This document shows positions 12,003-15,799 of a stretch of DNA of 40,910 nucleotides, one piece after another; the first letter of the stretch is position 1, and each line of letters begins with the position of its first letter. Origin of the DNA: Gammaproteobacteria bacterium (lineage in GTDB: Bacteria; Pseudomonadota; Gammaproteobacteria; DSM-19610); the NCBI GenBank assembly GCA_026197075.1, contig JAPHQV010000031.1, forward strand, positions 1 through 40,910, written 5' to 3'. The notes under the pieces are model-generated. The model was not told where the DNA came from. It saw only the letters and a list, made by a program, of their open reading frames with translations, and made no database searches. The position numbers and the translations under genes were made by a program.

Positions 12003-12758
12003 TCAGGCCCTGGCGCGACGGCGGCTCCAGGCCAGCAAGGGCAGGGTCAGGCCCAACAGGAGCAGGCTGCCCGGCTCCGGCACGGAGCCCGGGGGTTCAG
12101 GCATGGAGCCCGAAATGGACTTGATCTTGAAATAGTCGTTCCCGGAGGAGATGTTGGCACTGCTGACCTGGGGATTGAAGGCGCTGATCAGCCAGTAACT
12201 GGAGGTGTATACGGAACTGACATCCTTGTTGCTGCCCGTGCTGAGGTTGGTGTAGTCACCCACATGGGTCCAGCCGTTGCTGGCCAGGCTGGAATAGCTG
12301 TACCCGCCAGCCAGGTTCGGGGCGCCGACACCCGTGTAGGCCAGCAGCGTGATGTCGGCATCCTCGTACTTCCACCCGATCCTGACCTGTTCCAGGGTCA
12401 CCGCCTTGCCGTCGAAATCGAACAGCACGGAATCGATATAGCCGCTGTTATCGGTGGAATGGTTGGGAGAGCTGGTGCTTTCGCCGCGATTCTGCACACC
12501 CAGCCCGCTGCCGCTGTACTCGTGCAATTTTTGCGTCTGGAGCACGCTGCTGGAGCCCGTATTGGACCAGGCGGACGCGAACACGCTGTTACCCGCCGAG
12601 GAATATTCACGGACGTTGCCGTTAAAGGCGCTGCCGCAACCACTCACGCAACCACTGCTGAACACCCAGTCAATGGCGGCATGGGAGTTGACAGAGATAC
12701 CGGACAGCAACGCACCGAGCATCCCGACGGAGAAGAACCGATTCGTTATTTTCATCAT
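12003..12758 (-). CDS. PEP-CTERM sorted surface protein (exosortase substrate)
   Basis: Secreted protein of 251 residues. An N-terminal signal peptide (MMKITNRFFSVGMLGALLSG, with likely cleavage after SHA at about residue 27) leads a Ser/Gly/Asn/Tyr-rich mature part. The C-terminus is a complete PEP-CTERM signal: VPEP at about 226-229, a hydrophobic stretch (LLLLGLTLPLLAW) and a basic end (SRRRARA). A second PEP motif (MPEP) lies just before it. The mature start has a close cysteine pair (Cys37, Cys41). Exosortase is known to process such tails; no exosortase gene is in the window. The body resembles exosortase-dependent proteins with an IGW and LLAY core, but I cannot assign a function. Two adjacent ATGs are possible starts, and AGGTG lies just upstream. 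Confidence 0.85.
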   Translation of the reverse strand: MMKITNRFFSVGMLGALLSGISVNSHAAIDWVFSSGCVSGCGSAFNGNVREYSSAGNSVFASAWSNTGSSSVLQTQKLHEYSGSGLGVQNRGESTSSPNHSTDNSGYIDSVLFDFDGKAVTLEQVRIGWKYEDADITLLAYTGVGAPNLAGGYSYSSLASNGWTHVGDYTNLSTGSNKDVSSVYTSSYWLISAFNPQVSSANISSGNDYFKIKSISGSMPEPPGSVPEPGSLLLLGLTLPLLAWSRRRARA

Positions 12759-12882
12759 GGATCACCTGTGTGCTTACTGTTTTTCTGGCAACCCAGGCGA
12801 TCCCTTCCCGGCATGCTTCGTTTTTGTTGGGTCACTACCAGGGCCTTTCCCGCCCTTTGACACCTTCATTGTTCATTTACAT

Positions 12883-12899
12883 AGCAAATTTCATTCCAA
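12883..12899 (-). promoter_or_regulatory. Sigma-54 promoter of the PEP-CTERM gene
   Basis: Minus-strand TTGGAATGAAATTTGCT has the invariant GG and GC at the exact 10-base spacing and matches the sigma-54 consensus (TTGGCACG-N4-TTGCT) at most positions, including the whole -12 part. The start point would be about 12 bases further on, giving a leader of roughly 110 bases to the ATG. Known PEP-CTERM systems often encode the sensor PrsK and the sigma-54 activator PrsR, so the match makes biological sense. Neither gene is in the window. Confidence 0.7.
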
Positions 12900-12915
12900 T
12901 AAGAATTTCTTATTG
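12897..12915. promoter_or_regulatory. Perfect 19-base palindrome touching the sigma-54 promoter
   Basis: CAATAAGAATTTCTTATTG has 9-base arms around a single T. It overlaps the upstream edge of the -24 region by three bases. It could be a binding site for a regulator of the PEP-CTERM gene. It is too AT-rich and has no following T run for a convincing terminator. Confidence 0.45.
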
Positions 12916-12994
12916 AATAACATTCGATTAGTCGTGCAGGTCTTCCCCGCAGCTTTGGACCTGTAAATTTTATTGACAGCCGGCCCCACGGACC

Positions 12995-15799
12995 CTAGGG
13001 CCCAAGGCGCTCCAGCAAGGCCTTGGCCTGGGCGCGCCCCTCGAATGCCTGCCCATCCGCAAGGGCCTGCCGCAGCTCCGTGCGTGCCTCGGCATCCCGG
13101 CCCAGGGCCGCCAGGGCCGCGCCCAGATGGTAACGTATCTCCGGGTGATCGGAGATACGTAACTGGGCTTCGCGCAGAAAGCGCAGGCCCTCTTCGGCCC
13201 GCTCCATGCGCACCAGGGACCAGCCCAGCGTGTCGTTCACGAAGGGATTGCCGGGATCCAGGGCATGGGCACGCCGTGCGAGCGCCAGGGCCTCTTCGAA
13301 CTGGTCCTGGCGCAAGGCGATGTAAGCCAGGTTGTTCAGCACCCGCGGATCTTCCCCCTGGCTTGCCAGCAGATCCCCATAGCCGGCCGCGGCCGCGGCC
13401 AGGTCGCCCTTCTGCAGATGCGCCTCGGCAAGCGCCAGGCGTACCGGCACCTGGCCGGGGTAATCCCGCTCCCAGCGGGACAGGAAATCGATGGCTTCTT
13501 GCACGCGCCCCGATTGCCGGTAGGTACTGGCCAGCTGCAGGGCGATTTCCATGCTGGGTGCACGCGCCAGGGCGCGCCGAAACTGCTCCGCGGCCTTGTC
13601 AGGTTCACCCTCGCGGACATGGCGCATGCCCAGCAGGTAATAACCCTCGCCGGCATCGGGCCACTGTTCCTGGATGGCGAGCGCAAGGTCTTCGGCCTGC
13701 TTGAGCTTGCCGCGCGCCAATTCGATTTCCGCCATCATGACCCGGGCACGCAGGGAATCCGGCGCGACATTCACGGCCTTCTGTAACGACCAGGCTGCAC
13801 CATCGAGGTCCTCTGCGTCCACCTGCAACCGGGCGACGCGCAGCAACCGCGGCGCATCGAAGCCGGCCAGCTGGGAAAGTTTCTTGAAGCTCACGCGCGC
13901 CGCCAGGGTCTGGGCAAGACCCAGTTCGGCCAGACCCTGGCGTTCCAGCATCCGCTGGTTGTCAGGATCGTCCCGCAACACCCGGTGCGCCACCTTCAAG
14001 GCATCCTCCGCCCGATCTGACCGCAGCAACAAGTCGGACAAGTACGCCCCGACATAGGCCGAATCGGGCTCGAGGTCATGGGCCTTGCGCAGCCAGCGCA
14101 GGGCTCCCTCGAGGTCCTCCAGCCCCTCGGCGAGGCGCGCCATCTCCACCATTGCCTCGACATGCCGGGGATGCTGTTGCAGGAGGGCCTCCAATGCCGC
14201 GCGCGCGGCATCGGGGCGACCCTGGGCCCGGTCCAGCTTGGCCAGGTTGAGGCGCGCCGGCAGGAAATCGGCGTCGCGTGACAGCATGGCCAGGTAGATC
14301 CCGCGCGCGGCTTCCAGCTGGCCATTGGCCGTCAGGGCCGTGGCGTGCAGCGTCTGCAGGGTTTCGTTCCCGGGGTCCCGCGCCACCAGCCTCTGCGCCA
14401 CCTCCAGCCCCTGTTCCAGTTCACCGTTCTGCAAATACAGCACCCCGAGCATGATACCCGCCTGCTCATTTTCCTGACCCTGCTCGAAGATCCCGGCCAG
14501 CCCCGTCATGGCCGCGTCCTGGCGTCCCCGCACCAGGTCCAGGGTGGCCTGCTGCAGGCGTGCCTCGCTACTGAGCGGATTCAGGTCCAGGGCGCGTCCC
14601 AGTAATTCGGCTGCCTTGCCATGCCGGCCGAGCCGGGCCTGCACCGAGCCGAGCATGGTCAGCAGTGCCTCGTCCTCGGGTGCCATCGCCAGGGCCGGTT
14701 CCAGCACTTGCACCGCCTTTTCCAGTTCATCGTCGCGTACCAGCAGGGAGCCAAGCAACTTGCGCGCCCCCACCTGGCCCGGTATCTGCTGTACATAGAT
14801 CTGGAGCAAGGTAATGGCCTGCTCGTTGCGGTTCAGGCTGTAGTTCACCAAACCGCCCAGCAGCAGGCTCGGGGTATGTTGGTAGAGCAGTTCGCGGGGG
14901 ACATCGTCGAGAATGGCGGCAGCCTCCGACAATGCCTCGTGGGCCCCCTCTTCGTCACCGCCACGGGCCAGGACCACACCTTGCAGATACGCGGCACGGG
15001 GATCCCGCGGGTACTCTTCACGCAGGAAATCCAGGTCCTCCCGCGATTTATCCAGTTGCCCCAGATCCATGTACACCCCGGCACGGGCAATGCGCACGGC
15101 CAGGTGGCGCGGTTCCAGTTCCAGGGCACGGGCGTACTGTTCCAGCGCCTGCCAGGAGCGGCCACGGGCATGTTCGATGGCCCCGGCCAGGTACCAGACT
15201 TCGGGATTCTCGGGCGCCCGTTCGCGGGCCTGCCGGGCGAGTGGTTCAGCCTCTTCGAGCTCATTGCGCCGCAGCAGGATCGTGGCCAGACCGACCAGGG
15301 GTTCCGGCCGCGCGCTATCCAGGTCACGCGCGGCCACGAACTCCTTATCCGCCAGATCCAGGTGGGAGAGTTCCAGGTAGGCCTGTCCGCGCAGCAGATG
15401 CAGATCCAGTCGTGTGGAGACTGGATAGGCGACGGGCGGAAATTCCTCGACCACCTTCTGATATTCGTGTTGCATCATCAGCGCGCGCGCCAGGGGCACT
15501 GTCACCAGGACCGGATCGGCACCCAGCTTGCGCGCCCTCAGGAATTGCTTTTCCGCACCGGCCCCATCGCCGGTCTCCAGATAACACTTGCCCAACAGCA
15601 CGTGGGCAGGCAGGTGTTCAGGCGCGATCTGCAGGATGTTCTTGAGATGGATGATCGCTTCTGGAAATGCCTTCTGGTGATACAGGCCATTGGCCTGCTC
15701 ATAACGCGAGAAGACCGTCGCATCGTCTTCCGCCGGCAGACTGGCCGGCAGACCCAGGACAAACAGGCATAGCAGTGGTAACAGGTATCGGGTCAACAT
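12995..15799 (-). CDS. prsT: PEP-CTERM system TPR-repeat protein, PrsT-like
   Basis: Secreted 934-residue protein made almost entirely of tetratricopeptide repeats (repeated A..L...P and G...A...L patterns from about residue 30 to the end). Length and the opening repeat (FPEAIIHLKNILQIAPEHLPA, broken here as FPEAIIHLKNILQ then IAPEHLPA) fit the family usually called PEP-CTERM system TPR lipoprotein PrsT. A Sec signal peptide (MLTRYLLPLLCLFVLGLPAS) is clear, but I see no good lipobox, so it may be soluble in the periplasm. The family is found beside exosortase and exopolysaccharide genes; its exact role is unknown. Here it stands with one substrate gene only. A purine AGGA precedes the ATG. 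No convincing promoter was found upstream. Confidence 0.82.
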   Translation of the reverse strand: MLTRYLLPLLCLFVLGLPASLPAEDDATVFSRYEQANGLYHQKAFPEAIIHLKNILQIAPEHLPAHVLLGKCYLETGDGAGAEKQFLRARKLGADPVLVTVPLARALMMQHEYQKVVEEFPPVAYPVSTRLDLHLLRGQAYLELSHLDLADKEFVAARDLDSARPEPLVGLATILLRRNELEEAEPLARQARERAPENPEVWYLAGAIEHARGRSWQALEQYARALELEPRHLAVRIARAGVYMDLGQLDKSREDLDFLREEYPRDPRAAYLQGVVLARGGDEEGAHEALSEAAAILDDVPRELLYQHTPSLLLGGLVNYSLNRNEQAITLLQIYVQQIPGQVGARKLLGSLLVRDDELEKAVQVLEPALAMAPEDEALLTMLGSVQARLGRHGKAAELLGRALDLNPLSSEARLQQATLDLVRGRQDAAMTGLAGIFEQGQENEQAGIMLGVLYLQNGELEQGLEVAQRLVARDPGNETLQTLHATALTANGQLEAARGIYLAMLSRDADFLPARLNLAKLDRAQGRPDAARAALEALLQQHPRHVEAMVEMARLAEGLEDLEGALRWLRKAHDLEPDSAYVGAYLSDLLLRSDRAEDALKVAHRVLRDDPDNQRMLERQGLAELGLAQTLAARVSFKKLSQLAGFDAPRLLRVARLQVDAEDLDGAAWSLQKAVNVAPDSLRARVMMAEIELARGKLKQAEDLALAIQEQWPDAGEGYYLLGMRHVREGEPDKAAEQFRRALARAPSMEIALQLASTYRQSGRVQEAIDFLSRWERDYPGQVPVRLALAEAHLQKGDLAAAAAGYGDLLASQGEDPRVLNNLAYIALRQDQFEEALALARRAHALDPGNPFVNDTLGWSLVRMERAEEGLRFLREAQLRISDHPEIRYHLGAALAALGRDAEARTELRQALADGQAFEGRAQAKALLERLGP

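Follow-up and report, generated by a model that had tools for sequence, protein, structure and literature searches.

At IHF-assisted sigma-54 promoters such as that of nifH, an IHF site lies between the enhancer and the -24 box. The closest described system is the PEP-CTERM box of Haft et al. 2006 (PMC1569441), which reports proteobacterial PEP-CTERM genes with a motif 1 of 17 nt that has TTTACA at its end, followed after a spacer of 62.8 nt on average (range 32-92) by a sigma-54 motif 2, and proposes PrsR as the protein binding motif 1. In Aquincola tertiaricarbonis, transcription of pepA depends on RpoN1, and its start has been mapped, with TGGCAC and CTGCTT boxes (PMC9850573).

The window analysed here, meaning the whole stretch of 40,910 nucleotides, carries a promoter of this kind between prsT, which lies directly upstream, and xdp1 just downstream of it. 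A preliminary description of this DNA had placed a sigma-54 site with exact GG-N10-GC spacing in front of a PEP-CTERM gene, with a 19-base perfect palindrome overlapping the upstream edge of the site, and these three points were confirmed. The downstream product matched the XDP1 family NF041927 with 206.9 bits in a family profile search (cut-off 125) and was also over the cut-off for PF07589 (PEP-CTERM). The features of the locus are as follows:

12003-12758, minus strand: XDP1, exosortase-dependent PEP-CTERM surface protein of 251 aa, with an alternative ATG start one codon on
12883-12899, minus strand: sigma-54 -24/-12 promoter (motif 2), TTGGAATGAAATTTGCT, with 0 mismatches to TGGMAYGNNNNTTGCW
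12897-12915, no strand assigned: 19-base perfect palindrome CAATAAGAAATTCTTATTG, exact, with no other copy in the genome when up to 3 mismatches are allowed, probably incidental
12918-12930, minus strand: IHF-like element TAATCGAATGTTA, agreeing with YAANNNNTTGATW at 7 of 9 specified positions and placed where the element most often lies, 31 nt upstream of motif 2
12962-12978, minus strand: TGTCAATAAAATTTACA, the predicted enhancer site for PrsR (motif 1), separated by 62 bp from motif 2 downstream
12995-15799, minus strand: PrsT, TPR-repeat protein of the XrtA/PEP-CTERM system (TIGR02917, 589.9 bits, cut-off 312)

With regards to the sigma-54 box, the GG-N10-GC core of TTGGAATGAAATTTGCT, read on the minus strand from 12899 to 12883, is accompanied by TGGCAC/TTGCW-like flanks, as is characteristic of a sigma-54 promoter. 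No other site in the window matches TGGMAYGNNNNTTGCW without a mismatch; with up to 2 mismatches allowed, 19 matches were found against 21 expected, which is chance level. Position weight matrices (PWMs) were built from 64 homologous promoters with the window left out, and motif 2 reached a score of 19.8, corresponding to the 92nd percentile of these promoters. From the usual distance of 12 nt, the xdp1 transcript is predicted to start near 12872. A riboswitch or other known RNA in the xdp1 leader was rejected, as no Rfam family scored over its gathering score near the promoter site, the only match being a tRNA elsewhere.

Upstream of this box, TGTCAATAAAATTTACA matches the published 17-nt motif ending in TTTACA, and its spacer of 62 bp lies inside the range of 32-92 and close to the mean of 62.8 given in PMC1569441. 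While the score of motif 1 falls in the lower third of the family, the motif 1-motif 2 pair reached a joint PWM score of 39.0, and the best score in 12 shuffled (Markov) windows was at most 15.9. Motif 1 is thus the predicted enhancer site of the xdp1 promoter and the predicted target of PrsR. Motif 1 had been overlooked in the preliminary description, which therefore sought the regulator at the palindrome. An inverted repeat, CAGGTC...GACCTG, was also observed at 12937-12963 of the window; it runs from the end of motif 1, which it overlaps, into the spacer, and the stretch containing it folds slightly better than shuffled sequences.

The own genome was searched by pattern and by family. Motif 1 with a sigma-54 box precedes three of its five PEP-CTERM genes over the cut-off (the gene in the window, C19:77578 and one on C20), and the standard box was not found in the sequence examined for the other two. 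The expectation of the preliminary description that a shared motif stands before other PEP-CTERM genes was therefore borne out for the motif 1/sigma-54 unit, and not for the palindrome, which occurs once in the genome. The genome encodes one RpoN, the IHF alpha subunit (IhfA) and two PrsK/PrsR pairs, on contigs C3 (L130) and C19 (L128). Each pair is located near a PrsT-like gene, that on C19 beside a second PrsT, so that prsK, prsR and prsT, the gene set associated with the PEP-CTERM box, occur together in one genome, with PrsT in the window and on C19. The suggested link of sigma-54 and PrsK/PrsR to this gene is supported, both by the predicted PrsR motif at the canonical distance and by the genes for the two PrsK/PrsR pairs and the single RpoN.

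For comparison, 80 XDP1 loci were taken. An acceptable motif 1 with a sigma-54 box was found upstream of 64 of these homologues, and in 56 of the 80 loci the next gene upstream, in the same orientation, encodes a PrsT homologue. Judging by these loci, the order prsT - box - xdp1 is old and widely retained. An exact-pattern search detected the motif 1/sigma-54 unit in 38 of 369 genomes of the class, with zero hits for the reversed-pattern control among the matches listed. Within the family, XDP1 over the cut-off was not found in the 19 other genomes, and a sequence search found no relatives of the intergenic DNA.

Aligning the promoters on motif 2 revealed a conserved element of the AA-N4-TTG type, YAANNNNTTGATW, which starts approximately 31 nt upstream and is the reverse complement of the IHF consensus. 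Of 65 promoters, 51 matched YAANNNNTTGATW in at least 7/9 positions at -33 to -28 (mean of shuffles 6.9, maximum 14), compared with 7 for the reverse-complemented and 4 for the reversed pattern. Among 30 promoters forming an independent set, 15 had the element (mean of shuffles 3.3, maximum 10). Set against the IHF consensus WATCAANNNNTTR, the element is strong at the level of the promoter family, whereas the window copy matches at 7/9 positions, which is weak alone (about 10% by chance) and is supported by the retention of the element at this position in 51/65 promoters. PEP-CTERM sigma-54 promoters carry this fixed-position IHF-like element as a third part, and IHF would be its probable ligand.

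In both the XDP1-homologue and the independent set (L048-L164), the spacers between motif 1 and motif 2 are not spread evenly and cluster at 49-52, 60-64 and 70-76. The cluster centres near 50, 62 and 73 bp are about one helical turn apart. The Rayleigh test gave p <1e-10 in both sets, a value that serves as a guide only, given the relatedness of the sequences and the large share that comes from one main cluster. This clustering fits a contact of PrsR and polymerase on the same face of the DNA and suggests helical phasing of the enhancer spacing. The IHF-like element and the spacer clustering are new here as additions to the 2006 architecture, and both go unmentioned in the available part of PMC1569441. 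A search of the available literature found no paper devoted to IHF at PEP-CTERM promoters, a weak sign that the element is new.

The sequence directly shows the elements with their spacing, how far they are conserved among relatives, and that PrsK, PrsR, RpoN and IHF alpha are present; binding, looping, phosphorylation and the start site at this promoter are what we infer from them. Sigma-54 RNA polymerase would sit at 12883-12899, while PrsK would phosphorylate the response regulator PrsR. Phosphorylated PrsR would bind motif 1 at 12962-12978, and the 62-bp spacer would be looped, probably aided by IHF at 12918-12930, allowing PrsR to activate xdp1 transcription. The sigma-54/PrsR reading is supported and is of a kind already described in 2006. 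Taken as a whole, the xdp1 promoter is very probably a standard PEP-CTERM-box promoter of the sigma-54/PrsR type, with a palindrome that has no demonstrated role.

This palindrome is of odd length, with nine pairs around one base (CAATAAGAA-A-TTCTTATTG, 9+1+9), and shares the three bases 12897-12899 with the -24 box. The preliminary description had considered it a repressor site or a second control layer, a proposal that found no support in the comparison: the palindrome was found in none of the 64 homologous promoters, where the longest perfect palindrome has 8-base arms, and in none of 30 promoters picked regardless of XDP1, where the longest arms have 6 bases. In the own genome, it was absent from the other sigma-54/PEP-CTERM boxes, and no second copy was detected even at 3 mismatches. 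In a column-pair test at its centre, complementary pairs were not consistently commoner than expected across the 64 promoters, and a family-wide site was rejected on these grounds. An operator of a dimeric repressor would be kept in orthologous promoters or be common to several genes, and in the promoters and the genome compared here the palindrome was neither.

The window contains two palindromes with 9-base arms, the second of which sits within a gene. The chance of an arm of at least 9 bases in a promoter of such composition is approximately 0.0015-0.0018, before correction for the post-hoc choice, and a chance origin is plausible because the site was picked out of 41 kb. The palindrome is located between the IHF-like element on one side and the -24 box on the other, in an A-rich/T-rich region where the A/T composition of the whole family is 0.47/0.29 upstream and 0.32/0.47 downstream. 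This change from A-rich to T-rich favours an accidental symmetry. It can be concluded that the palindrome is real, is without support as a functional element, and may well have arisen by chance. It would gain importance only with proof that a regulator binds it.

The alternative that survives best, and which we nevertheless consider unlikely, is a lineage-specific operator, at which a dimeric regulator, e.g. of the LysR type, would recognize AATAAG-N5-CTTATT and block sigma-54 polymerase at -24, so that xdp1 would be under a second layer of control. The exact symmetry (a chance of about 0.002 per promoter) and the coverage of the -24 box edge fit such an operator, whereas the missing second genome copy at up to 3 mismatches and the absence from every homologous promoter argue against it. 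Family-wide, copies at up to 3 mismatches are few, and the best one precedes a CbbR-like LysR gene: in genome L169, AATAAG-N5-CTTATT stands about 47 nt before the gene start, and three orthologues (L170-L172) have similar AATAAG sites in the same place, so that this type of site exists in the family. In L169, the gene adjoins a sulfide quinone reductase-like gene. Before the CbbR-like LysR genes of L169-L172, the inverted repeat is a probable autoregulatory site. For the operator proposed at xdp1, it is a lead toward a LysR-type regulator that falls short of evidence. The protein of the own genome closest to this LysR protein shares only 46% identity with it, and the site is missing upstream of its gene; a link of CbbR to the xdp1 palindrome was rejected for want of a close orthologue. 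The broader model, in which PEP-CTERM sigma-54 promoters combine a PrsR site, a fixed IHF bend site and a sigma-54 box, the spacers being tied to the helical turn, plus a lineage-private repressing operator over -24, seems quite improbable in this full form.

The palindrome is very unlikely to mark the end of the prsT transcript, in the form of an RNA hairpin or terminator. It does lie downstream of the prsT stop codon, and as RNA it folds better than shuffled sequences (-8.1 kcal/mol, z -2.6), but the stem is nearly all A/U, a U run after it is absent, and the palindrome is not kept in syntenic prsT-xdp1 gaps. That it is itself the PrsR enhancer site can practically be discarded: it is upstream of a sigma-54 box and PrsR-type proteins bind as dimers, yet it abuts -24, too near for looping, is missing from homologues, and a well-scoring motif 1 already stands at the canonical distance.

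The standard PEP-CTERM-box reading assigns the xdp1 promoter to the PrsR/sigma-54 regulon known since 2006 and identifies its predicted enhancer. Among the new findings, the third element and the spacing across the promoter family are the most useful. With the IHF-like element and the helical phasing, direct tests become possible of how promoters are built in this regulon of biofilm- and floc-forming bacteria, on which hardly any tests exist. As with Aquincola pepA (PMC9850573), a PEP-CTERM gene adjoins prsT and has a sigma-54 promoter with an upstream enhancer motif. RpoN dependence was demonstrated there. The two loci differ in that the gene is pepA and not xdp1, that prsT is located downstream of it, and that a palindrome is unmentioned. 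The xdp1 promoter resembles that of nifH in an IHF-type site between the enhancer and the -24 box, here recognized from sequence conservation only. Compared with the box in the available part of PMC1569441, the xdp1 promoter differs in that its spacer also contains the 19-base palindrome, and it agrees in the 17-nt motif ending in TTTACA, the spacer of 62, the sigma-54 box, the large gap before the PEP-CTERM gene and the presence of PrsK, PrsR and PrsT.
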